Counted from the first letter of the stretch, positions 23,198 to 44,164 are shown. The stretch: DNA of 44,164 nt from a virus (IMGVR_UViG_3300037071_001952:1-44164), one strand, 5' to 3'. Made by a program: numbers and translations. The notes: generated by a model not told the origin, from the letters alone.

Positions 23198-24247
23198 CTA
23201 CTGTCGCGGCCGACGCATGACCTCGTCGGGCAGCGGGCCGTGCGGCTGCTTGCCCGTGAACGGCGTGCCCAGGATGCGGATGGGCGTACTCAGGTCGCGC
23301 ACCACGATGCGGCTGAGCGTGCGCCCCTCGTAGTAGGCGTTCCAGCCTGCCGCCACGTGCCTGGCGTAGTGGTGCCCCGCCATCTCGCGCACACGTGTCT
23401 CAAGGATCCAGTCGTGCACGGTCTTCTCTGGGCTGCCCTGCGTCAGCGCATTGTCGTGCGCCATCGCCGTAAAGAACTCCATCGCCTTGGCTGGCTGGAA
23501 ACGCAGCGCCACCATCGCCACGGCCGTGACGGGCGACGCCGTGATGTAGGCCACCAGGCGTGAGCGACTGCTGGTGACGCAGCTAATCCAGTCGCGTCCC
23601 TCTGCAATCCAGTCAATGATGAACTCGGCACGCTTCTCGGCGTCGACCAAGCCTGGGTTACGCACCTCAAACCCCGTCGACAGATAGCTCTCGGCCTCAC
23701 CGATCAGCCGCAGGTTGTAGTTGCTCAGGCCCAGCGCCTCGGCCAGCCCCATCGCACGGTAGACGTCAACCGGGGTGCGCGTCTTGCCACGGTCCAACCG
23801 CATGTACAGGTGGTGGAGGTCGGCGGGTCGCTGCATCAGGTGGTGCTCGACGAGGAAGGTCGTGGGCATGCCACTCTCGACCACGGCGTTGAGCCGGTTG
23901 CGCCCGTTGATGAGGTAGGTGCCCTGCGGCAGCAGCAGCCCACCCCCCGCGTCGTCACCCTCAGCGGGCGTGCCGTCGTAGGTGGCGAGCGTGATGGTCG
24001 ACACGCCCCATTCACTGCGCGTCATCATGTCGGCGTACAGACGCACGACGCTGGGATACTCGGGTCGCTGGCGCGGGTAATGATATTCATTCAGCCAGAA
24101 CGCCGCGCTCTCACGGTCGAGCAGCACGCACTCCAACCGCACCGTGTGGTGGGCGTCGAGCATGAGCGATGAGGTGTTCGGCAGGCTGTCGTGCGGGTAC
24201 GGCCACGGTGCCGTGAAGGCGCGGGTGACGGTCGTGGTGTTGGTCAT
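23198..24247 (-). CDS. ParB/DGQHR-like nuclease-fold protein
   Basis: 349 residues from ATG 24247. The earlier ATG 24256 is only one base from the GAGAGGA site, whereas 24247 gives the roughly 10-nt spacing used elsewhere in the phage. The core (about residues 45-135) resembles ParB/DGQHR-type domains: a Ser-Val-Val-rich helix, then TYLINGRNRLNAVVESGMP with the family-like N-G-R-x-R in place of D-G-x-H-R. A helical C-terminal part follows. Members bind or nick DNA or hydrolyse CTP. Which applies here is unknown. Part of the replication cluster. Confidence 0.65.
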   Translation of the reverse strand: MTNTTTVTRAFTAPWPYPHDSLPNTSSLMLDAHHTVRLECVLLDRESAAFWLNEYHYPRQRPEYPSVVRLYADMMTRSEWGVSTITLATYDGTPAEGDDAGGGLLLPQGTYLINGRNRLNAVVESGMPTTFLVEHHLMQRPADLHHLYMRLDRGKTRTPVDVYRAMGLAEALGLSNYNLRLIGEAESYLSTGFEVRNPGLVDAEKRAEFIIDWIAEGRDWISCVTSSRSRLVAYITASPVTAVAMVALRFQPAKAMEFFTAMAHDNALTQGSPEKTVHDWILETRVREMAGHHYARHVAAGWNAYYEGRTLSRIVVRDLSTPIRILGTPFTGKQPHGPLPDEVMRRPRQ

Positions 24248-24264
24248 CGGGGTCATGTCCTCTC

Positions 24265-24312: not shown

Positions 24313-26526
24313 TCAATCATCGCCGCGCATGTCGGTGGCCCACGCCCGCCCATTGACGTCGGGCGTGGTGAACATCTCATCCTGGGCGGGCTGCGGTTGG
24401 CGCTGTTCCATCGCGTCTGCGGTCGGGGCATAGCGGCGTTTCTCCCGGTGATGGCCCTGCGTCTCGACGAGGTGGGCCTCGATGAGCGTATTGACTTTGT
24501 TCACGGCCGTGCGTTCGGCCAGCCCGGTGGCGGCGGCGATCTGTTTAGCCGTCGGCCAGCCGCCAGGCAGCGTCGTGTGCAGGTCGATAACGGCCTCAAG
24601 GATGACGTCGGGGCTGACCGCCTTGCTCTCTGGTGATTCAAACACGGTGAACGCCACCTCCCCACCGTCGTCGTGGACGTCAGGCTTGAAGTCAAGCTTG
24701 AGCATCACCTCACGACGGCCGGTGCCTTCCTTGTGGTGCAGCACCAGGCGCACCGTCTGCTCAGCACTGGTCGGGTAGACCAGGATGCCACCCGCTGTCG
24801 CCGCCCACAGCACGCTGCTGCCACGCAACTCGTCACCCTCACGCGGCGTCTTGCCCACCAAGTTCTCTTTGCCGAAGTGGTGGACCACGTTGTAGCTGGT
24901 GCCGAACTCATCGCGCAGGAACAGCAACCGCTCCATCAGTTGCATCTGCTCGCCAGCATCGTTCTCATTCGTGTGATGCAGGTTGCGATACGGGTCAGCA
25001 AAGATGGCGGCGGGTTGGTAGGGGATGACCACCTCGTTGACCAGCTTGTTGACCTGCTCGTCGTCGTCCAAGCGCCAGTGCTCGTTGGTGATGATGAGCA
25101 GGTTGGGCTCGACGTTGGCGGGCAGCAGTCCCTTGCCGCGAATGATGGCACGCAGCCTGCGACGCACGTCGCGTCGACTGCCTTCCTCTTGCAGGTAGAC
25201 CACGACGCGGGGACGTTCAACGTGGAACGTCCCGCCCAGTGCCGCCACGCCCGCCGCCAGGCTGACCGCCATCTCCATCATGATGAAACTCTTGTACACA
25301 CGTGGCGGGCCTGCCAACCACGACACCACACCCGCACGCAGGAGCCCGTCAATGAGCATCGAGTCACCCTCGTCGGGTTCCTCCAGCAAGGCACGGGCGT
25401 GGATGACGAACGGGTGCGGACGCGGCTCACGCTTGGCGACGAGCAGGTCGTACACGTTGGTGCTGACGGGTGGCACGATGCTGAGCGTGAACTTCGGGCG
25501 GCGCGAGCGCAGCAAGCCGTCGAGCGTCAGCGCGTCGGCGGCGTTGACCAACGGCGACGTGCTATCGGTCAGCTTCGACCAGCCCGACACGGCCACGCCC
25601 TCGCTCGCTCGCTTGTAGGTGCTACGGACGCAGTTGCGAATGTCGCGACGATCACCACCCAGTTCGGTGACCAGCGGCAGCACGATGGCCCACACGTCGC
25701 TTTCCGGCACCTTGTACGAGGCCAGCCAGCCCGCCACGGCTAGCGTCAGGTCGTGGCGCTGGCCGTCGACCCAACTGGGGGCGAGGGCAGCACGCACGCG
25801 GTCGATGTCCTGTTGCGTTAGCGGGTCACCGTCGACGAACGGCAGCGCATCTTCCGGTCCCTGCGTCTTGACCGGGATACCGTGGGTGAGGTGGTCGGCC
25901 TCGACCAGGCTCTCCCACGGCGGGATCTCCCAGGCGTACTCGCCGCCATCGGGGTGGATACTGGGCGGGATGACGGTGTAATGCATGCCGTTCCGCAACT
26001 CCGCTTTGCTGCCGTCGGGCGCTGCAAACTTGGCGTAGGCAGCGACGACACCCGGTGGCGAGCGGAACCAGAGGTGGAACTTGCCGCTGCCCGTCTTGAC
26101 CCGTGTCCAGCGCACGGCGGCGGGATAGCGACGTGCGAAACTGGCGTAGCCCAGCGGCCCGTCAAAGTCGAGGATGTTCAACCACGGCGCGGTGGTGCCG
26201 GGGACGACGGCCAGACCGGTGTAGCCCTTGACGATGAACCAGTCGTACAGCTCGCCGTTGTCGGGTAACCGGTGCCCGTAGACGCCCCACTTGAACCCCT
26301 CGGGCGGCTCTTTGGTGCCCGCCGCAATCGGGATGACGGAGATGCCCATCTTGACCAGCCGCATGGCGGTGGCGAAGACGGGGTTGTCCTTGTCGGCGGC
26401 TGGCGGTCGGGGTGACACAGGCGTGACGAACTCCAACACCCCGGCACGCAACCGTACCGGGGTAGCCGTGGAACGATGGCCGATGTTAGCGTGGTTTGAT
26501 TGGTGCCCACGGGTCGTCGTAGTCAT
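24313..26526 (-). CDS. Replication protein: primase-polymerase fused to RepA-like helicase
   Basis: 737 residues from ATG 26526, overlapping the SSB-like gene end by 41 bp (a GTG or later start cannot be excluded). Residues about 45-220 are a PrimPol (bifunctional primase/polymerase) domain: NILDFDG gives the catalytic D-x-D, SGKFHLWF the nucleotide-binding His, and ELRNGMHYTVIPPSIHPDG the third motif. Residues about 380-600 are a RecA-like RepA/AAA_25 ATPase, Walker A GPPRVYKSF and Walker B-like AAIFADPYR. A winged-helix-like end follows (GWPTAKQIAAATGLAERTAV). It can prime and unwind. It is the only replicase candidate in the genome. Confidence 0.92.
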   Translation of the reverse strand: MTTTTRGHQSNHANIGHRSTATPVRLRAGVLEFVTPVSPRPPAADKDNPVFATAMRLVKMGISVIPIAAGTKEPPEGFKWGVYGHRLPDNGELYDWFIVKGYTGLAVVPGTTAPWLNILDFDGPLGYASFARRYPAAVRWTRVKTGSGKFHLWFRSPPGVVAAYAKFAAPDGSKAELRNGMHYTVIPPSIHPDGGEYAWEIPPWESLVEADHLTHGIPVKTQGPEDALPFVDGDPLTQQDIDRVRAALAPSWVDGQRHDLTLAVAGWLASYKVPESDVWAIVLPLVTELGGDRRDIRNCVRSTYKRASEGVAVSGWSKLTDSTSPLVNAADALTLDGLLRSRRPKFTLSIVPPVSTNVYDLLVAKREPRPHPFVIHARALLEEPDEGDSMLIDGLLRAGVVSWLAGPPRVYKSFIMMEMAVSLAAGVAALGGTFHVERPRVVVYLQEEGSRRDVRRRLRAIIRGKGLLPANVEPNLLIITNEHWRLDDDEQVNKLVNEVVIPYQPAAIFADPYRNLHHTNENDAGEQMQLMERLLFLRDEFGTSYNVVHHFGKENLVGKTPREGDELRGSSVLWAATAGGILVYPTSAEQTVRLVLHHKEGTGRREVMLKLDFKPDVHDDGGEVAFTVFESPESKAVSPDVILEAVIDLHTTLPGGWPTAKQIAAATGLAERTAVNKVNTLIEAHLVETQGHHREKRRYAPTADAMEQRQPQPAQDEMFTTPDVNGRAWATDMRGDD

Positions 26527-27220
26527 CGTCCGTGGGTCCGTCGAAGGCGGCACCGATCTCTGCGTCCACGGTACGCTGGTCCTGACGTGGAGGTGGTACC
26601 TGGCGCTGGGGGTTCGGTTGGGACTGGGGTTGCTGGCGTTGTTGGGGAGCCACCTGTTGGCGTGGTGCCTGCTGCGCCTGGGGTTCGGGGCGGTACGGTG
26701 CCAGGTTGCTCAGCTTGACACCGGGGCTGCCGTTCTCCTTGGTGTAGTTGATGTAGGTCGCCTTGGCCTGCTTGCCAATGAGGTCGGCCACCTCAAGTTC
26801 GTCGTCGTCATCCATGAAGCGTTGCAACAACGCCTCGGCCCACGCCCTGAGCGTGGCCTTTGGCCCCATCGTGGAATTGACCCAGCCATGCACGACGTTG
26901 CCCACGAACTCGGCCGACCGGCGCGGGTCTTCGCTGTCGATGACGTGCTCGACCAGGAAGTCGAACCTGAGCCGGTCGACGTCGGGATTGAACCGGTTCT
27001 CAGCCTCTTTGAAGATGCCGTTGACGGTCACGATGTACAGCCCGGGCGGTGGCACGGTGGCCGTCCTGTTGTGGACCCTGGGGATCCTGAAGTTCGTGTC
27101 GTAGCTCAGTTCCTGCTGGATTTCGACGCCGATCTGTCGGCCCTGCTCGTCATACATGGGCTGGGCAGTGGGCTGCGGGCGCTGGTCCTGCACGCGGTAC
27201 GGTCGTGGGTTACTGCTCAC
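26486..27220 (-). CDS. SSB-like single-stranded DNA-binding protein
   Basis: 244 residues from GTG 27220. The N-terminal 150 residues contain an OB-like pattern with FKEAENRFNPDVDRLRFDFLVE and a helix region (KATLRAWAEALLQRF). Residues about 165-225 are Gln/Pro-rich and disordered. The last 20 carry an acidic patch (DGPTDDDYDDPW) before IKPR. A folded N-domain, Gln/Pro linker and acidic tail next to a primase-helicase is the layout of phage ssDNA-binding proteins. The tail would dock partner enzymes. Assigned on architecture, not a diagnostic motif. Confidence 0.7.
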   Translation of the reverse strand: MSSNPRPYRVQDQRPQPTAQPMYDEQGRQIGVEIQQELSYDTNFRIPRVHNRTATVPPPGLYIVTVNGIFKEAENRFNPDVDRLRFDFLVEHVIDSEDPRRSAEFVGNVVHGWVNSTMGPKATLRAWAEALLQRFMDDDDELEVADLIGKQAKATYINYTKENGSPGVKLSNLAPYRPEPQAQQAPRQQVAPQQRQQPQSQPNPQRQVPPPRQDQRTVDAEIGAAFDGPTDDDYDDPWAPIKPR

Positions 27221-28681: not shown

Positions 28682-28710
28682 AGTGTAGATCAGACGTGCC
28701 AATGTGTCAA
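28682..28710 (-). promoter_or_regulatory. Sigma70-type promoter of the Xre regulator gene
   Basis: On the minus strand: TTGACA (28710-28705), 17-bp spacer, TACACT (28687-28682), with the ATG about 40 bp further on. Consensus boxes with ideal spacing make this the best sigma70-type promoter in the window. Confidence 0.8.
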
Positions 28711-28727: not shown

Positions 28728-28764
28728 CCCGCAGGTGGTCACGCTGTAGGTGACCACCTGCGGG
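28728..28764 (-). terminator. Rho-independent terminator ending the distal early operon
   Basis: A perfect 15-bp stem (CCCGCAGGTGGTCAC / GTGACCACCTGCGGG) with a 7-nt loop, followed on the minus strand by ATTTTGTC. It lies just after the stop of the gene at 28781 and just before the Xre promoter, separating two leftward units. Confidence 0.85.
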
Positions 28765-28780: not shown

Positions 28781-29173
28781 CTAGACGGTGGCTGCGGCGA
28801 CGATCTCCTCGATGGTCTGCGGTGGCGTCGGGGTCTTCCTGCGCCGTGACCACGTCGTCTTCTTGCGCTTCGTGCGCGGCCCTGGCTTGCCCGACCTGCC
28901 AGCGACGCGCTTGCGCTGCGTGCTGGCGTCGACGTCGGCCACGGTCACGAAGTAGACCGGGGTTGGCTGACCTGGGTAGCCGCGACGCACGGCGGGGATG
29001 ACGCCGCGATAGATGCTCTTGAGCACGGCGGTCCTGGTCAGGCCCAGGCGTGCAGCCGCCTGGGTGATGGTCAACTCGTCGGGTCCGACCGACGTGGTGA
29101 CGGTGGGCGAGACGACCTTCACCTCACTGAGCCGGGGGCGGCGCTTGGCCGTGGTCGTGGGTGTCGCGGTCAT
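28781..29173 (-). CDS. Helix-turn-helix DNA-binding protein (excisionase/MerR-like)
   Basis: 130 residues, ATG 29173 overlapping the upstream TGA (ATGA), AAGGAG seven bases upstream. Residues about 33-85 match the HTH_17 type: LTITQAAARLGLTRTAVLKSIYRGVIPAVRRG, then a PVYFVTVADVDA wing. A strongly basic tail (KRKKTTWSRRRK) would add DNA affinity. Probably a transcription regulator or DNA-architecture protein. An excisionase role is unlikely without an integrase. Last gene before a strong terminator. Confidence 0.75.
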   Translation of the reverse strand: MTATPTTTAKRRPRLSEVKVVSPTVTTSVGPDELTITQAAARLGLTRTAVLKSIYRGVIPAVRRGYPGQPTPVYFVTVADVDASTQRKRVAGRSGKPGPRTKRKKTTWSRRRKTPTPPQTIEEIVAAATV

Positions 29174-30694: not shown

Positions 30695-30985
30695 CTAGGC
30701 GCGGCTGAGCGCGTAGAAGGCGTCGGACCAGGCAGCACGGGCGGCCTCGCGGGCGTCGAAGGCGCGTCCGAGGACAGCCCAGGTCGTGTGGTAGGCGCGG
30801 GCGTTGGCGCAGTCGGTGCCGAAGTCATCGCGGGTGTACGTCAGGTACGCGCTCCGGTGGGCCTCTGAGGCTGTCTGGTAGTCGGCGTCGGCTGCCAGGT
30901 AGGCAGCGTGGGCGGTGCGAACAGCCTCGTTGGCGGCAGTGTCGTCGCTGACGATGAACATGGGGCCGGTGTCGGACGTGGTCAT
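30695..30985 (-). CDS. Unknown early protein, first gene after promoter M1
   Basis: 96 residues from ATG 30985, AGGAG upstream. Helical and rich in Ala, Asp, Tyr: AVRTAHAAYLAADADYQTAS, then RSAYLTYTRDDF and REAARAAWSDAFYALSRA. Three Ala-rich helices that alternate acidic and aromatic residues. No recognised family. It lies downstream of a TGAAAC-type promoter and its leader hairpin. Confidence 0.7.
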   Translation of the reverse strand: MTTSDTGPMFIVSDDTAANEAVRTAHAAYLAADADYQTASEAHRSAYLTYTRDDFGTDCANARAYHTTWAVLGRAFDAREAARAAWSDAFYALSRA

Positions 30986-31011: not shown

Positions 31012-31035
31012 GGGACGTGCCCTGTTGCACGTCCC
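31012..31035 (-). promoter_or_regulatory. Leader hairpin with AACAGG loop (M1)
   Basis: On the minus strand GGGACGTGC-AACAGG-GCACGTCCC, a perfect 9-bp stem with a 6-nt loop, starting some 10 bp after the promoter. The M2 leader has the same loop on an unrelated stem, and M3 has AACTGA. Confidence 0.65.
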
Positions 31036-31044
31036 ACTGCAAGA

Positions 31045-31071
31045 TACGCAGCGGGTGATTGCGTGGTTTCA
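31045..31071 (-). promoter_or_regulatory. ECF-like promoter M1 (TGAAAC-N17-CGTA)
   Basis: On the minus strand TGAAAC (31071-31066), 17 bp, CGTA (31048-31045), then TCTTGCAGTGGG. M2 and M3 share both boxes, the exact 17-bp spacing and the following CAGTGGG-like segment. Known extracytoplasmic-function sigma promoters (for example Bacillus sigma W, TGAAAC-N16-CGTA) look the same. Confidence 0.6.
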
Positions 31072-31371
31072 CTACCGTGTGACAGCCTTGTAGATGGCGG
31101 CGACAACGACGCAGATGACGGCCACGACGGCCAGCAGCACAGCGCCGATGACGATGACGCCCAGCATGCCCGCCCAGATGGGCACGCGGCTATGGGTCTG
31201 GCCCGATATCCAGTAGGCGACCGGGATGCCGGCCAGCCAGAGCAGCCACATCCAGCCGTTGCCACCGCTGGTGGTGGCGGACGTCGGTGTCGTCGCGGTC
31301 GGTGTCGTCGCGGTCGGTGTCGTCGCGGTCGGTGTCGTGGTCGTGTCGGGCGCGGTCGGGGTGGTGTCCAC
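31072..31371 (-). CDS. Thr/Pro-repeat membrane protein
   Basis: 99 residues from GTG 31371, seven bases after GAGGAG; the ATG at 31377 lies one base from the site and is less likely. The N-terminal 40 residues are Thr/Pro-rich, with a 15-bp unit coding TPTAT repeated three times. Two hydrophobic segments follow (GWMWLLWLAGIPVAYWI; then about 26 residues, MLGVIVIGAVLLAVVAVICV). The Thr/Pro stalk could face outward. Possible superinfection-exclusion or membrane-modifying protein, by analogy only. The stop codon abuts promoter M1. Confidence 0.75.
   Translation of the reverse strand: MDTTPTAPDTTTTPTATTPTATTPTATTPTSATTSGGNGWMWLLWLAGIPVAYWISGQTHSRVPIWAGMLGVIVIGAVLLAVVAVICVVVAAIYKAVTR
31288..31332 (-). 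repeat. 15-bp tandem repeat encoding TPTAT x3
   Basis: Unit GGTGTCGTCGCGGTC (plus strand) three times in a row, in frame inside the Thr/Pro membrane protein gene. A coding repeat prone to copy-number change. The exact edges are set to whole units. Confidence 0.7.
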
Positions 31372-31413
31372 GTGCATGCTCCTCGTGGTCATGAGGCACC
31401 GGCTCATTCGGGC

Positions 31414-31429
31414 GGGGCTACGCAGCCCC
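31414..31429 (-). other. Intercistronic hairpin (GGGGCT stem)
   Basis: GGGGCT / AGCCCC around the 4-nt loop acgc. It is the second of two hairpins between the stop at 31481 and the start at 31371. Confidence 0.5.
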
Positions 31430-31432
31430 ACG

Positions 31433-31464
31433 ACACGCGCCACACGGTGGGTGGTGGCGCGTGT
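31433..31464 (-). other. Intercistronic hairpin with 11-bp stem
   Basis: ACACGCGCCAC / GTGGCGCGTGT, perfect 11-bp stem with a 10-nt loop, beginning 17 bp after the stop at 31481. It is adjacent to the repeated TTTCGCCGTGGTGCG element. Confidence 0.65.
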
Positions 31465-31478
31465 TTCGCCGTGGTGCG
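31464..31478 (-). repeat. 3' element TTTCGCCGTGGTGCG, copy 1
   Basis: This 15-bp sequence lies 2 bp after a stop codon (minus strand) and recurs at 33096-33110, 5 bp after another gene's stop. On the minus strand it reads CGCACCACGGCGAAA. Confidence 0.6.
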
Positions 31479-31480
31479 TG

Positions 31481-31801
31481 TTAGCCGACGATGGCGGTGC
31501 CGGTGCGCTGCGCCTCGACGACGGCGCTGAGCACGTAGGTGGCTTGCAGCATGCCCTCAAGCACCAGGGCGCACTCGCGGGTCGTCATGCCTGAGCGCAG
31601 GCAGTCGGCCATGCGCCAGACGGTGCGTCCCAGCGTGGTGTCGGTGTCGTCGGCGCTGAGCGCGTCATAGATGTCGATGGCGACGTAGCCGTTGCGACGC
31701 TGGGTGAGGTAGCGCGTGGTGGACCCAGACCAGCCCAGGTCGTGGTTGAGGCGCGTCTCGTAGCGGCGCAGGTCGTCGGCGGTGTAGCGGTAGCGTGGCA
31801 C
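31481..31801 (-). CDS. Unknown early protein
   Basis: 106 residues from GTG 31801, seven bases after GAGGAG; ATG 31807 is an alternative two codons earlier but sits one base from the site. Pattern: RYRYTADDLRRYETRLNHDL, a beta segment TTRYLTQRRNGYVAIDIYDA, then helices with CLRSGMTTRECALVLEGM. No recognised family. The closing part (TVWRMADCLRSGMTTRE) loosely resembles VLRRVHGLMRAGMTTQ in the 260-residue protein at 33481, so a shared module is possible. Confidence 0.7.
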   Translation of the reverse strand: MPRYRYTADDLRRYETRLNHDLGWSGSTTRYLTQRRNGYVAIDIYDALSADDTDTTLGRTVWRMADCLRSGMTTRECALVLEGMLQATYVLSAVVEAQRTGTAIVG

Positions 31802-31826
31802 GGGCATGCTCCTCGTGTGGGTACAG

Positions 31827-31849
31827 GCGTGCGCCCAGTCGACGCACGC
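31827..31849 (-). other. Intercistronic hairpin, CCCAGTCGA loop (copy 2)
   Basis: GCGTGCG / CGCACGC, 7-bp perfect stem around CCCAGTCGA, the same 9-nt loop as at 30297-30319, with a different stem. Confidence 0.65.
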
Positions 31850-31862
31850 GGTCGGGGCCGGG

Positions 31863-32255
31863 TTAGCGGCTGGCGTAGCCGCCGACCGTGGTGACGCGCC
31901 AGGTGAACAGCGCGGCACGCACGTCGTCGACGTTGGTCCAGCGGCCGCGCTCGTCGCGACTGGGCCAGACCTGCACCTGCGCTTCCAGGTAGAGCGCCAG
32001 GGCGCGTGCCGCGGCGCGGCTGGGTAGTCGCGTGTCGACGGCCAGTCCGCTGGCGCGGTGGGTGACGGTCCAGGTGGCGTGGAATGCGCCGTCGCGGTAC
32101 CCCGCGCTGCGGTGGTAGGCGACGTGCTCAAACGCCAGGGCGTCGACGGTGCGGAGCGCCAGGGCACCGTGGGTGGCGTGGCGACGTCGAGCGTCGGTCG
32201 GGGCGGCGACGGGCACGGTCACGGTGGTGCGGTGGGCGGTCATGGTGGCACGCAT
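31863..32255 (-). CDS. Unknown basic early protein
   Basis: 130 residues from ATG 32255, nine bases after AGAGGA (ATG 32243 is a possible second start). Basic, Arg/His/Ala-rich, with a beta-strand-rich core (YRDGAFHATWTVTHRASGLA) and a helix (SRAAARALALYLEAQVQVW), ending DDVRAALFTWRVTTVGG. The beta-beta-alpha pattern could be a small nucleic-acid-binding fold. No firm assignment. Confidence 0.65.
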   Translation of the reverse strand: MRATMTAHRTTVTVPVAAPTDARRRHATHGALALRTVDALAFEHVAYHRSAGYRDGAFHATWTVTHRASGLAVDTRLPSRAAARALALYLEAQVQVWPSRDERGRWTNVDDVRAALFTWRVTTVGGYASR

Positions 32256-32283
32256 GGGCGGTGGTCCTCTCGCGAGCGGGTGA

Positions 32284-32305
32284 ACACGCGCCAGACGGCG
32301 CGTGT
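32284..32305 (-). other. Intercistronic hairpin (AGAC loop)
   Basis: ACACGCGCC / GGCGCGTGT, 9-bp perfect stem with 4-nt loop agac. Related C-AGAC centres occur in the hairpins at 33063 and 33422. Confidence 0.65.
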
Positions 32306-32322
32306 GTGGTCGTGGGACGCGC

Positions 32323-32574
32323 CTACTCGCTGGCGTCCAGGTCGCAGACGAGCACGCGCACGGCGTCGGCGTGCGCGGCCAGCGCGGCAGCCTTGCCGCG
32401 GCTGTGGGTGATGACGGGCGGGGTGGTGATGCAGGGGTGCGTCGTGATGGTGGCGTAGCACGCGCCGTAGCGGCGCGGTGTGCCCAGGAAGCGATAGGTG
32501 AACACGGTCTGGTCACCGACGACGGTGCGAGCGGTGTCGGGGCGGCGGGCGACGATGGCAGCGGTGGTGGTCAC
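32323..32574 (-). CDS. Unknown small early protein, first gene after promoter M2
   Basis: 83 residues from GTG 32574, within the same AGGGAGCATGCACC-GTG start box as the gene at 30632. Beta-rich middle (TVFTYRFLGTPRRYGACYAT) and a helical end (GKAAALAAHADAVRVLVCDL). The first residues VTTT resemble the VTTA starts of two neighbouring genes, which hints at descent from a common start cassette. No recognised function. Confidence 0.65.
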   Translation of the reverse strand: MTTTAAIVARRPDTARTVVGDQTVFTYRFLGTPRRYGACYATITTHPCITTPPVITHSRGKAAALAAHADAVRVLVCDLDASE

Positions 32575-32604
32575 GGTGCATGCTCCCTGCGTGTGTGGTG
32601 CGGT

Positions 32605-32626
32605 GGCGCAGCCCTGTTGCTGCACC
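32605..32626 (-). promoter_or_regulatory. Leader hairpin with AACAGG loop (M2)
   Basis: On the minus strand GGTGCAGC-AACAGG-GCTGCGCC, an 8-bp stem with one T/G wobble. Same loop as M1, different stem. It lies between promoter M2 and the GTG at 32574. Confidence 0.6.
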
Positions 32627-32636
32627 CACTGACATC

Positions 32637-32663
32637 TACGGGGCGGGTGGCTGTCTGGTTTCA
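32637..32663 (-). promoter_or_regulatory. ECF-like promoter M2 (TGAAAC-N17-CGTA)
   Basis: On the minus strand TGAAAC (32663-32658), 17 bp, CGTA (32640-32637), then GATGTCAGTGGG. It matches M1 at most positions from the -35 to the CAGTGGG segment. Confidence 0.6.
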
Positions 32664-32682
32664 CAACCAGGTGAATTGACGA

Positions 32683-32973
32683 CTACAGGCGGGAATAGTC
32701 GTCGTACTCAGCCGCCTCCTCCCACGAACTCTCGCAGGCGTCCAGTAGACGCGACACGACCGTGGTGTCGTCGCGTTGTGCCAGCGCGGCACAGGCGGCG
32801 GCGTGGCGGGTGCGGTACGCGCCACGCGTGCCAGCGACGCGCCACACGCGGCCACCTCGGCCGGTGCGGTAGGCGACGCCCAGTGGCAGCGTGGCGTGCA
32901 CGACGTGCCACACGAGCGCCCCGGTGGCGTCGACGAAGCGAAGAAAGGTGAACTGCGTCGTGGCGGTGGTCAC
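32683..32973 (-). CDS. Unknown early protein
   Basis: 96 residues from GTG 32973 with CAGGAGG upstream. Beta-rich first half (QFTFLRFVDATGALVWHVVHA), a basic Gly/Arg loop (YRTGRGGRVWRVAGTRGAYR), then helices (AAACAALAQRD, VVSRLLDACESSWEEAAEY). Not recognised. It ends just upstream of promoter M2. Confidence 0.65.
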   Translation of the reverse strand: MTTATTQFTFLRFVDATGALVWHVVHATLPLGVAYRTGRGGRVWRVAGTRGAYRTRHAAACAALAQRDDTTVVSRLLDACESSWEEAAEYDDYSRL

Positions 32974-32987
32974 AGGGGCCTCCTGGG

Positions 32988-33018
32988 GCACCACAGCGCG
33001 TGTACGCGCACGTGGTGC
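32988..33018 (-). other. Compound hairpin after the 90-residue gene
   Basis: Outer stem GCACCAC / GTGGTGC (7 bp) encloses an inner GCGCGT-gt-ACGCGC stem (6 bp). It lies between the stop at 33116 and the ribosome site for the GTG at 32973. Confidence 0.6.
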
Positions 33019-33062
33019 GTGTGTGGTGCGTCGCGATAAGACGGCTGAGTACGGCTCATCGG

Positions 33063-33079
33063 CACGGGTCAGACCCGTG
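33063..33079 (-). other. Intercistronic hairpin (CAG loop)
   Basis: CACGGGT / ACCCGTG, 7-bp perfect stem, 3-nt loop cag, following the gene that ends at 33116. Confidence 0.55.
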
Positions 33080-33095
33080 GACGCGGTTGCCCGCG

Positions 33096-33110
33096 TTTCG
33101 CCGTGGTGCG
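33096..33110 (-). repeat. 3' element TTTCGCCGTGGTGCG, copy 2
   Basis: Second copy of the 15-bp element at 31464-31478, again just downstream of a leftward stop codon. Confidence 0.6.
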
Positions 33111-33115
33111 CGTGG

Positions 33116-33388
33116 CTAGTCGCGTGTGTCGCGCAGATAGCGTGCGACGATGCGTCGTCCCAGCGCCAGCGCCAGCACGTCGCACGCGTCGTCGACACTG
33201 CCGCTATCTGGTTGGTCGCCGTCGGGTGTGTCCTCGTCGATGCACGCCAGCAGCGTGTACAGGCGGTTCGTGGCTTCGCGAGCGTCGAGGTCGAGCGTGT
33301 CAGCGCGACGCGTGCGCTGCGACGCGGGGATCAGGCGGGCGACGTCGGACAGATCCTGGGCGTCGACGGCGGTCGTGTAGCGTGTCAT
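33116..33388 (-). CDS. Unknown acidic early protein
   Basis: 90 residues, ATG 33388 with CAGGAGG upstream. Helical, acidic: DAQDLSDVARLI, then DTLDLDAREATNRLYTLLAC, an acidic loop (EDTPDGDQPDSGSVDDA), and a closing helix CDVLALALGRRIVARYLRD. The loop is free of hydrophobic residues and probably disordered. No recognised family. Confidence 0.7.
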   Translation of the reverse strand: MTRYTTAVDAQDLSDVARLIPASQRTRRADTLDLDAREATNRLYTLLACIDEDTPDGDQPDSGSVDDACDVLALALGRRIVARYLRDTRD

Positions 33389-33421
33389 GGCATGGCCCTC
33401 CTGGGCATGTGTGGGCGTGGT

Positions 33422-33442
33422 CCGCGCACCAGACGTGCGCGG
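33422..33442 (-). other. Intercistronic hairpin (CAGAC loop)
   Basis: CCGCGCAC / GTGCGCGG, 8-bp perfect stem with loop cagac, between the 260-residue gene (stop 33481) and the next start at 33388. It is followed on the plus strand by a GTGCGCTTAC direct repeat. Confidence 0.6.
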
Positions 33443-33480
33443 CGTGTGTGTGTCGCGTGCGCCGTGCGCTTACCGTGCGC

Positions 33481-34263
33481 TTACGACGTCGCCGCCGTGC
33501 GCTTGCCCACGAACGTCGTGGGCGCGTCGTGCGCTGGTAGCGCGTCCATGCGCGACTGCGTGTCCGGGTACACGGCGTGCACGCGGGCGATGTCGCCAGC
33601 ATCGCGCCAGAGCGCCGCGTGCAGCGTGTCGTACCAGCGAACGTGCTCTCGCGAGACGTCGTCGGCCGTGGGATAGCGGTCTGGCCATTGTGCGCTTGCG
33701 CCGCTGCACCAGAAATCCCACAAGCCAGCGGACCCGCCTTGTGCCGTGCAGAGGTCCGCATAGGCAATCGCGCTGTCGCGCTGGCGCTCACGGCCGGCAC
33801 GTGTGCGCTTGGGCGCGTCGCCGTGCATGCCGCCAACTAGCTTTTTGACGTTGAGCCCCAGCGCCTTTGCGTTGCGACTGTCGATACACCCCATCACGCC
33901 ATAGGCAAGCTGCAAGTAGAACCCGGCCTTGACGTAATCGAGCCACGGCAGAACACACAACGCCATATGCGCTTGTGTTGTCATGCCGGCTCGCATGAGC
34001 CCGTGCACGCGTCGTAGCACGGGCAGCGCCTCACCTGAGCGTATGACGCGCAACGCGTTGCGGCGGACGGTGAACCGCCAGGTCCGTGCACGGTCGCCGT
34101 CGCGCAACGCGCCCAGACAGTGCGAGAGCACGAACGGCGTCTCATTCCGGATGGTCACAGCGACCATGGCATACGTCGTCAACAGCGCGGTGTCATGGGC
34201 ATGCGTCCCAACGGCGGCGGCGTGAATACGGGATGCGATAGCGGACTGATCGACAGCGTACAT
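33481..34263 (-). CDS. Possible helix-hairpin-helix/DNA-glycosylase-like protein, first early gene
   Basis: 260 residues from ATG 34263 (GAGAGGA 11 bases upstream). The central segment VLPWLDYVKAGFYLQLAYGVMGCIDSRNAKAL looks like a helix-hairpin-helix followed by G-C-I-D-x-x-N, as seen in phage relatives of HhH DNA glycosylases, where the Asp is catalytic. The rest is helical, with a conserved-looking GLWDFWCSGASAQW and REHVRWYDTL. It is first behind the leftmost ECF-like promoter (M3). If correct it could act on modified or damaged bases of host or phage DNA. The family call is tentative. Confidence 0.6.
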   Translation of the reverse strand: MYAVDQSAIASRIHAAAVGTHAHDTALLTTYAMVAVTIRNETPFVLSHCLGALRDGDRARTWRFTVRRNALRVIRSGEALPVLRRVHGLMRAGMTTQAHMALCVLPWLDYVKAGFYLQLAYGVMGCIDSRNAKALGLNVKKLVGGMHGDAPKRTRAGRERQRDSAIAYADLCTAQGGSAGLWDFWCSGASAQWPDRYPTADDVSREHVRWYDTLHAALWRDAGDIARVHAVYPDTQSRMDALPAHDAPTTFVGKRTAATS

Positions 34264-34296
34264 GGCGGTTCGTGTCCTCTCGATGTGATGCGGTTC

Positions 34297-34319
34297 GTGG
34301 CGGCTCAGTTGCCGTCCAC
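34297..34319 (-). promoter_or_regulatory. Leader hairpin with AACTGA loop (M3)
   Basis: On the minus strand GTGG-a-CGGC / GCCGCCAC: an 8-bp stem with one bulged A and the 6-nt loop AACTGA, about 10 bp after promoter M3, matching the placement at M1 and M2. Confidence 0.5.
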
Positions 34320-34328
34320 AGTGCATAT

Positions 34329-34355
34329 AACGTTGCCCGTCATGCCTTAGTTTCA
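34329..34355 (-). promoter_or_regulatory. ECF-like promoter M3 (TGAAAC-N17-CGTT)
   Basis: On the minus strand TGAAAC (34355-34350), 17 bp, CGTT (34332-34329), then ATATGCACTGTGG. It is the first leftward promoter of the early arm and differs from M1 and M2 mainly in the spacer. Confidence 0.55.
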
Positions 34356-34408
34356 TCACTGGTGACACGACGGGGCAAATTGGTTGAATTGGCGGGCAAT
34401 TTTTTGCT

Positions 34409-34427
34409 CGTTAGGCGGTCTCTAACG
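34409..34427. repeat. Inverted repeat CGTTAG / CTAACG
   Basis: 6-bp arms, 7-nt centre. CGTTAG also forms part of the longer arms at 34462 and 34517, so the box occurs repeatedly in this region. Confidence 0.5.
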
Positions 34428-34461
34428 GGCAACGACGATAACGCGCATAGCCGTTTACTTT

Positions 34462-34526
34462 TGCGCGTTAGACGAGCCTGTACACCCCCTACGTAGTAGG
34501 GGTGTACGGGCATCGACTAACGCGCA
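34462..34526. repeat. Nested inverted repeats around a CTACGTAG centre
   Basis: Outer arms TGCGCGTTAG (34462-34471) and CTAACGCGCA (34517-34526) enclose inner arms GTACACCCC (34480-34488) and GGGGTGTAC (34499-34507) with CTACGTAG in the loop. Both pairs are perfect. A likely binding site for a dimeric or multimeric protein, or a cruciform. Confidence 0.7.
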
Positions 34527-34747
34527 GAAACGGTCATAGGGTGATGACATATCTACGCGGCCACGTGGGAGGTCGAAGACCGATGCGGGCGTGCGCATAA
34601 AGCGCAACGGTCCACGGTGGTAGCGCCATCCTCAGATGGCGTCTTCCCTATCCCGGCGCTGGCACTACGCGCATCATGTGGGCAGGGCCGACCGCGCATT
34701 CTGCCCAGCCGCGTGAGGCTCGTGCCAGCTGTGGCGTCCCCGTCGTG

Positions 34748-34769
34748 CGACGTCGTGTCGACGTCGTGT
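34748..34769. repeat. 11-bp tandem repeat CGACGTCGTGT x2
   Basis: Two exact adjacent copies, just before the inverted repeat at 34771. Helical-turn spacing (11 bp) is typical of iterons. Confidence 0.55.
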
Positions 34770-34770
34770 C

Positions 34771-34808
34771 GGCCAACTAGCGAGATGTGCCGTTATCGTT
34801 AGTTGGCC
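34771..34808. repeat. Inverted repeat GGCCAACTA / TAGTTGGCC
   Basis: 9-bp perfect arms separated by 20 bp, in the candidate origin. Confidence 0.55.
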
Positions 34809-34840
34809 CTGATATCGGGCTATTCTTGCCTTGCGACCAC

Positions 34841-34865
34841 GGCACGGCACGGCACGGCACGGCAC
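34841..34865. repeat. GGCAC pentamer x5
   Basis: Five exact tandem copies that run directly into the hairpin at 34865. A short simple repeat in the candidate origin. Confidence 0.8.
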
Positions 34866-34883
34866 CTCGACGCACCGTCGAGG
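34865..34883. repeat. Hairpin CCTCGACG / CGTCGAGG
   Basis: 8-bp perfect stem with a 3-nt loop, extendable through GGCA / TGCC with one unpaired t. Among the most stable hairpins of the intergenic region. Confidence 0.65.
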
Positions 34884-34948
34884 TTGCCACGCCACGCACG
34901 CTCCGATCTCCGCGCCTGCCCACGCGCTGGCACAGATCTGCGCCCGCA

Positions 34949-34973
34949 CCCCCACCCCCGCCCACCCCCACCC
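34949..34973 (-). other. Predicted G-quadruplex (minus strand)
   Basis: Five C runs of 5, 5, 3, 5 and 3, separated by single bases, so the minus strand has five G runs with 1-nt loops, an ideal parallel quadruplex. It sits about 20 bp before the AT-rich tract. Confidence 0.65.
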
Positions 34974-34994
34974 GGTCACGCGCTCACCCGCCAC

Positions 34995-35029
34995 GTTATA
35001 TATACGTACACCACTCGCTAAATAATAAC
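34995..35029. other. AT-rich tract, candidate DNA-unwinding element
   Basis: GTTATATATAC and CTAAATAATAAC stand out in a high-GC genome and lie next to the C-run tract, the pentamers and hairpins. Confidence 0.45.
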
Positions 35030-35033
35030 CACA

Positions 35034-35049
35034 TTTGGGATTACCCAAA
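35034..35049. repeat. Palindrome TTTGGG-ATTA-CCCAAA
   Basis: 6-bp perfect arms around ATTA, just after the AT-rich tract. Candidate protein-binding site. Confidence 0.5.
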
Positions 35050-35151
35050 ACGTACCCTTCCCCTACGCTGACCGTTCCAGCGTGCCAGGCCAGAACGAGG
35101 CCACGCAGCCACCATCGGCACGTGCCCGTCAGCCCGTCACATCGTGCTCGT

Positions 35152-35172
35152 CATGCCCGTTAGACGGGCATG
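35152..35172. repeat. Palindrome CATGCCCGT-TAG-ACGGGCATG
   Basis: 9-bp perfect arms around TAG. Candidate operator or packaging-protein site between the arms. Confidence 0.6.
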
Positions 35173-35373
35173 TAACGTGCAGCGAACACCTAGACGTAGT
35201 CGGTGCACTCTCGTGATGCGGCATGAGGGAATGATATATCGCGGCAGTGGGTGATGAAAGAGTTCATGCTATCTTTTGGATACCACTTTGTACCAAAAAA
35301 AGGTTTACGTGTGACAGCTATTCCCCGCCCTCTGATCGTGCTACACTACCCGTGCATGTTCCTTTCTCGTGTG

Positions 35374-43869: not shown

Positions 43870-44164
43870 AGACGTGCGGGCAGACGCCATCATGGACCCG
43901 TTTGCCGTTGTTGCAGTTGTAGCAGAGTACCTGAAAACCTTCGGGGAAGTTATGACGAACGAGCCAGGCGAAGAATGTGTTCCCGACCGCGCCACCGATG
44001 GACCGGCGATGTTCGGCACCATCGTTGTTGACGTGGTCGATGCACAGAAAGTGCAGCCCTTGTTCACGGCAGCAGGCGCAACGCAGGGTGCCGTTGGAGT
44101 AATGGGTCAAACAGGTCAGTCGCTGGTTACGGCTGAACGCCTTCTTCCGTTCGTTGGAGCATGC
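43850..44164 (-). CDS. HNH homing-type endonuclease, C-terminal part (continues at 480..1)
   Basis: This holds the HNH core and end of the same gene: residues IDHVNNDG give the Asp-His of the beta-beta-alpha metal site, LCYNCNNGK supplies the Asn-rich second half with a CxxC zinc knuckle, and a final CPH follows. Positions 44036-44164 duplicate 1-129, so only 43850-44035 is new sequence. The stop overlaps by 20 bp the 3' end of the convergent virion gene 43468-43869. An internal ATG near 44110 could be mistaken for the start, but the frame stays open to 480 across the join, and the long form carries the extra zinc ribbons. Confidence 0.9.
   Translation of the reverse strand, partial: ACSNERKKAFSRNQRLTCLTHYSNGTLRCACCREQGLHFLCIDHVNNDGAEHRRSIGGAVGNTFFAWLVRHNFPEGFQVLCYNCNNGKRVHDGVCPHVFIASGI
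44036..44164. repeat. Terminal direct repeat, second copy
   Basis: Second copy of the overlap described at 1-129. It sets the unit length at about 44,035 bp. At 44036-44038 this copy has the GAC (Asp) codon expected by the HNH motif on the minus strand. Confidence 0.9.

Follow-up and report, generated by a model that had tools for sequence, protein, structure and literature searches.

The arrangement with which this locus is best compared is that of the ESAS elements of cluster K mycobacteriophages (TM4, Adephagia). These are multi-copy intergenic elements of roughly 50 bp that stand before small non-structural genes (PMC3203893, PMC11373665), and they were later interpreted as a promoter joined to an inverted repeat (PMC11373665). 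Their boxes are SigA-like with a spacing of 17-18 bp, and their inverted repeat is imperfect, 15-17 bp long, with a spacer of 4-13 bp; Pope et al. did not take that repeat for an RNA hairpin (PMC3203893, PMC11373665).

Two types of bacterial promoter also bear on the locus. In Bacillus, the published sigma-W consensus is TGAAAC-N16,17-CGTA (PMC2375139). In the high-GC bacterium Streptomyces, the envelope-stress sigma factor sigma-E, of the extracytoplasmic function (ECF) type, reads promoters having 16-17 bp between the -35 and -10 regions (PMC6767563). A non-exhaustive search of the literature for ECF sigma factors in connection with phage promoters returned an in vitro method only.

The DNA analysed here, called the window below, is one virus record, 44,164 bases long, with a GC content of 61-72% by 1-kb stretch. 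It carries TGAAAC-N17-CGT(A/T) three times, on the minus strand only, and each time inside a gap between leftward genes. A preliminary description had reported these three sites, and a pattern search bore out their coordinates, their strand and the exact 17-nt distance. What that description overlooked is that the boxes make up one half of a larger duplicated module, in which a promoter-like half is followed by a hairpin. The modules, designated A, B and C, and the features around them are as follows.

31045-31071, minus strand: two-box part of module A (TGAAAC at 31071-31066, N17, CGTA at 31048-31045), beginning directly after the stop codon of g7
31012-31035, minus strand: hairpin of module A, GGGACGTGC-AACAGG-GCACGTCCC, from folding (-22.7 kcal/mol, 0 of 60 shuffles as good)
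30695-30985, minus strand: g8, 96 aa, 3' of A, no family match
32637-32663, minus strand: two-box part of module B (TGAAAC, N17, CGTA)
32603-32629, minus strand: hairpin of module B, GTGGGTGCAGC-AACAGG-GCTGCGCCAC, from folding and covariation
32323-32574, minus strand: g4, 83 aa, 3' of B, no convincing family match
34329-34355, minus strand: two-box part of module C (TGAAAC, N17, CGTT), at the head of the leftward gene block
34297-34319, minus strand: hairpin of module C, GTGGACGGC-AACTGA-GCCGCCAC, with one bulged A, from folding and covariation
33481-34263, minus strand: g1, 260 aa, the first leftward gene, 3' of C, no family match
34405-34526, no strand assigned: TGCNCGTTA repeated five times, 50-170 nt 5' of the -35 box of C
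28728-28764, minus strand: intrinsic terminator with a 15-bp stem and a T-rich tail, closing the leftward unit g1-g13
28682-28710, minus strand: promoter of the Xre gene, of the ordinary sigma-70 type, TTGACA-N17-TACACT

The two boxes are rare in this combination. When TGAAAC-N15-19-CGTW was sought on both strands of the genome, exactly three matches were obtained, at A, B and C; shuffled sequences gave a mean of 0.21, and none of 100 shuffles reached three. TGAAAC itself occurs 12 times (8 on the minus strand), and CGTW follows at +17 only in the three copies that lie within leftward gaps. The -35 box is identical in the three modules, as is the 17-nt length of the spacer, and the -10 box is CGTA in A and B and CGTT in C. 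Scored against TGAAAC/CGTA with spacers of 16-18, only A (31071) and B (32663) reach 10 of 10 in 88 kb of strand; C reaches 9 of 10, a score equalled at four other places. A and B are the genome's only perfect matches to the sigma-W consensus. Downstream of the boxes stand TGCAGTGGG in A, GTCAGTGGG in B and TGCACTGTG in C. In all three, the boxes lie 57-66 nt 5' of well-formed ribosome-binding sites and starts, with an AGGAG-like site before the downstream gene.

The likeness to Bacillus sigma-W promoters therefore covers both boxes and the spacing, and is exact in A and B. The differences are that this is a phage genome of high GC content, known here from its sequence alone, and that C has CGTT. 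Streptomyces sigma-E promoters resemble the sites in the distance between their -35 and -10 regions, a likeness of spacing, not base by base. The actinobacterial pattern GGAAC-N15-18-CGTY was also considered, and was set aside as occurring in the phage only at chance level.

The similarity between the sites does not stop at the boxes. A and B agree at 73% of positions over 64 nt, parts outside the boxes included. In a gapless alignment running about 54 nt from TGAAAC, 39 of 54 positions agree between A and B, 32 of 54 between C and A, and 28 of 54 between C and B; what all three have in common is TGAAAC, A, AC, GC, CGT, CA, TG, G, GCAAC, G and GC. A profile made from A and B and run across the genome finds C as the third-best place, with a score of 60, the next place having 55 and the mean being 28.7 (sd 5.8). 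Of 60 first-order Markov simulations of the genome, 3 reached a score of 60; of 500 such simulations of the 1.2-kb control region, none did. A covariance model built from A, B and C matches only these three in the window, and these are, of course, its own training set. The three sites are diverged copies of one module of roughly 54-55 nt, with a first half that resembles an ECF promoter and an RNA hairpin as the second.

Here, C is the weaker member. Its spacer matches that of A at 8 of 17 positions and that of B at 5 of 17, with the TGAAAC and CGT boxes intact. The CAACG that runs up to and into its -10 box is part of a 10-bp repeat (ACGGGCAACG) having an inverted copy at 34425-34434, and because of this overlap the CGTT of C counts as weaker evidence. 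A and B, in turn, are diverged copies of one 64-nt element, and so represent one event plus a duplication. The window thus holds effectively about two independent examples, not three.

The 3' half of the module folds into a hairpin that has AAC-N-G conserved in its loop and stands directly 5' of the ribosome-binding site. The loop is closed by GC/GC in A, B and C, and the sequence of the stem varies while its pairing is kept. Four of nine pairs have changed on both sides, a covariation drawn from only three sequences, and in the same three sequences paired cells amount to 81.5%, against 30-52% for slid structures. Compared with 60 shuffled sequences each, the folding energy is better in every case for A, in 59 cases for C and in 51 for B. 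A search of Rfam gave no match.

Like ESAS, then, the module is a multi-copy intergenic element in which promoter-like boxes are combined with an inverted repeat just 5' of ribosome-binding sites. Unlike those of ESAS, its boxes are ECF-like, and its repeat, placed 3' of the boxes, has 9 bp and a 6-nt loop and shows the covariation of a hairpin. No module contains the ESAS-type 17-bp imperfect inverted repeat with a spacer of 4-13 bp. SAS (GGGATAGGAGCCC, 13 bp), which adjoins ESAS, has no match at two mismatches or fewer, and matches at three mismatches fall below the chance level. Given the different type of box, the different length of the repeat and the lack of SAS, the module is a similar solution to ESAS, not a member of it. 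Even with the ECF part set aside, a repeated promoter-plus-hairpin cassette carried by a phage for which no relation to cluster K was detected would suggest that this layout arose more than once.

Hairpins are not, of course, confined to the modules. Similarly strong ones stand in most of the other leftward gaps, without TGAAAC. Occurring as they do in gaps from g1 to g10, hairpins characterise the leftward gene block in general, and a hairpin need therefore not belong to a promoter. Several of those at 33442-33422, 32305-32284, 31849-31827, 30681-30663 and 30319-30297 (minus strand) carry CTG in the loop or at its end, and three of the hairpins outside the modules begin exactly 13 nt past a stop codon. 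They are unlikely to be terminators, having no T tails and being located between nearly every pair of genes. A second gap element is duplicated as well, at 33115-32974 and 31480-31372 on the minus strand. Its copies have CGCACCACGGCGAAAC in common, followed by hairpins, and precede g3 and g7, genes that look unrelated. This second family has GCGAAAC, but without a correctly spaced CGTW.

The modules might, then, not be promoters at all. They could be duplicated intergenic RNA or DNA elements that stabilise or process mRNA, control translation or mark the boundaries of gene cassettes, and the boxes would then be merely part of a recent duplicate. The identity of A and B beyond the boxes fits such a history, as do the generality of the hairpins, the constant distance of three of them from a stop codon, and the existence of the second family. 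Further, inspection by eye shows no evident similarity among g1, g4 and g8, which suggests that the elements were moved or kept independently of the genes. However, when C is set against A and B, what remains is the two boxes and the loop, and it would have to be a coincidence that boxes and spacing agree exactly with those of a known promoter consensus. That the modules are elements of this kind is unlikely, although not greatly so.

This leads back to the promoter reading. Boxes that stay intact while the spacer of C has drifted from those of A and B form the pattern expected of a promoter. Together with the consensus match, the lack of a leftward sigma-70 promoter and the repeats upstream of C, this makes it rather likely that the modules are promoters, and plausible that they are of the ECF type. 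That an ECF sigma factor reads them is quite possible, if on balance somewhat doubtful. The preliminary description had proposed just this, and its proposal gains from the agreement of the boxes with the sigma-W consensus, from their distance to the ribosome-binding sites and from the lack of any recognisable sigma-70 promoter in the unit; the sigma factor itself we infer. No sigma domain was found among the phage proteins scanned against Pfam, which cover part of the ORFs.

If A, B and C were one promoter cassette present three times, TGAAAC and CGTW would be bound by RNA polymerase equipped with an alternative sigma factor of the host, of the ECF (group IV-like) type, and transcription would start about 6-9 nt downstream of the boxes, where CA(G/C)TG is conserved. 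The transcript would open almost directly with the hairpin and its AAC-N-G loop, and the ribosome-binding site and gene would come next; the hairpin may shield the 5' end or take part in its regulation. From C, transcription would cover all the small genes of the leftward block, g1-g13, and B and A would renew it at g4 and g8. Transcription would end at the terminator at 28764-28728, which separates the g1-g13 unit from Xre with its own sigma-70 promoter. This cassette explanation, taken as a whole, falls just short of an even chance.

If the cassettes are ECF promoters, the phage would couple a block of genes to a stress sigma factor of its host instead of to the housekeeping one. The fullest form of the idea holds that small accessory genes on the leftward strand depend on three duplicated ECF-sigma cassettes with a 5' hairpin, and that their expression tracks envelope stress in the host, with Xre and the rightward genes left to the housekeeping sigma; in that form it is unlikely. 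That damage to the envelope at entry switches the phage on is speculation, and the leftward genes are called early as judged from gene position only.

The contrast that had been drawn with the Xre promoter is real when the sequence is inspected. On the leftward strand from 28.7 to 35.6 kb, the only recognisable sigma-70-type promoter found belongs to Xre, and the leftward gaps contain no extended -10 in that direction; two rightward ones lie in the control region, at 35267 and 35339. The sigma-70 promoters of high-GC hosts, of course, often have no clear -35 box, and the lack of sigma-70 matches is for that reason a weak argument. Read as sigma-70 sites, A, B and C themselves have poor hexamers at a 20-nt spacing, and were rejected as such.

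A housekeeping sigma factor of the host might still read the modules with the help of a phage activator, whose site would be TGAAAC and its flanks. The HTH protein encoded at 28781-29173, or the Xre protein, could be that activator. The phage does encode HTH proteins of its own, and its scanned proteins, as noted, include no sigma domain. TATCTT in A occupies a possible -10 position and might be a poor sigma-70 -10, and the TGCNCGTTA repeats 5' of C suggest a sequence-specific regulator. These repeats are, however, missing 5' of A and B; the hexamers in B (TAGATG) and C (TATATG) are without the final T of a -10 hexamer; and GTGAAA or ATGAAA stands at least 20 nt from those hexamers. We regard control by an activator with housekeeping sigma as doubtful.

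All seven genomic copies of TGCNCGTTA lie in the divergent control region (34405-35181), against 0.71 copies expected in the genome. The cluster is a candidate regulator-binding or operator array, or a candidate replication-origin array. The region also holds a palindrome with perfect arms, TGCCCGT-TAG-ACGGGCA (35154-35170), and a large inverted repeat (34459-34529). On its plus strand, TGTAAC-N18-CGTA (35171-35198) points rightward, one mismatch from the sigma-W-type consensus, and may be there by chance.

RTGAAAC might instead be a start codon (Met-Lys), with the conserved stretch coding for an N-terminal extension of the downstream genes. At each of the three sites an open frame does continue in phase into the gene that follows (87, 90 and 93 nt), and A and B translate to MKPRNHPLRILQW and MKPDSHPPRRCQW. 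But the codon log-odds, taken per codon, come to -0.05, -0.24 and -0.27, where the leftward genes score 0.33 +/- 0.14; RTG has no ribosome-binding site on its 5' side, while the inner starts have good ones; the first 20 codons of A and B differ by nine nonsynonymous and no synonymous changes; and the stretch folds as a covarying hairpin. Codon usage, the missing ribosome-binding site and the pattern of substitution lead to rejection of a coding extension as very improbable. Chance resemblance of unrelated sequences having two short boxes is scarcely credible: the motifs are short, come from one window without relatives, and C's score is equalled in 3 of 60 simulated genomes, but shuffles give 0.21 where three are observed, the identity of A and B extends over 64 nt, and C, whose score came up in 0 of 500 simulations of its region, precedes a leftward gene at the equivalent position.

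Relatives of this phage are distant. Megablast of the right half of the window against 50,697 phage records gave no nucleotide match; single-protein queries with g1, TerL, the portal and the primase gave no relatives among viral or genome contigs; and tblastn in phages with the phrog_5931 protein (23198-24256) and the portal candidate gave nothing. An alignment search with TerL did return distant relatives, at 25-35% identity. Two of these (L010 and L011; GC 38-44%) have small leftward genes before the terminase, as here, and neither the module nor comparable repeated gap elements. The module was found in none of 22 loci, which comprise the distant relatives and other terminase matches, differ in GC content, and include no close relative from the collections searched. 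One TerL relative lies in a MAG labelled as an archaeon; an archaeal host is unlikely, because the phage encodes peptidoglycan enzymes (M23/SLT and amidase).

Two observations concern other parts of the window. The protein encoded at 24313-26553 (minus strand) is a fusion of Prim-Pol and AAA_25, related only distantly to known phage primases. A start-site motif longer than a plain Shine-Dalgarno sequence, GGAGCATGC, stands just before the GTG starts of four leftward genes (minus strand, 30644-30636, 31382-31374, 31812-31804 and 32586-32578), and is found again, exact, on the plus strand at 121-129 and at 44156-44164, the very end of the window.
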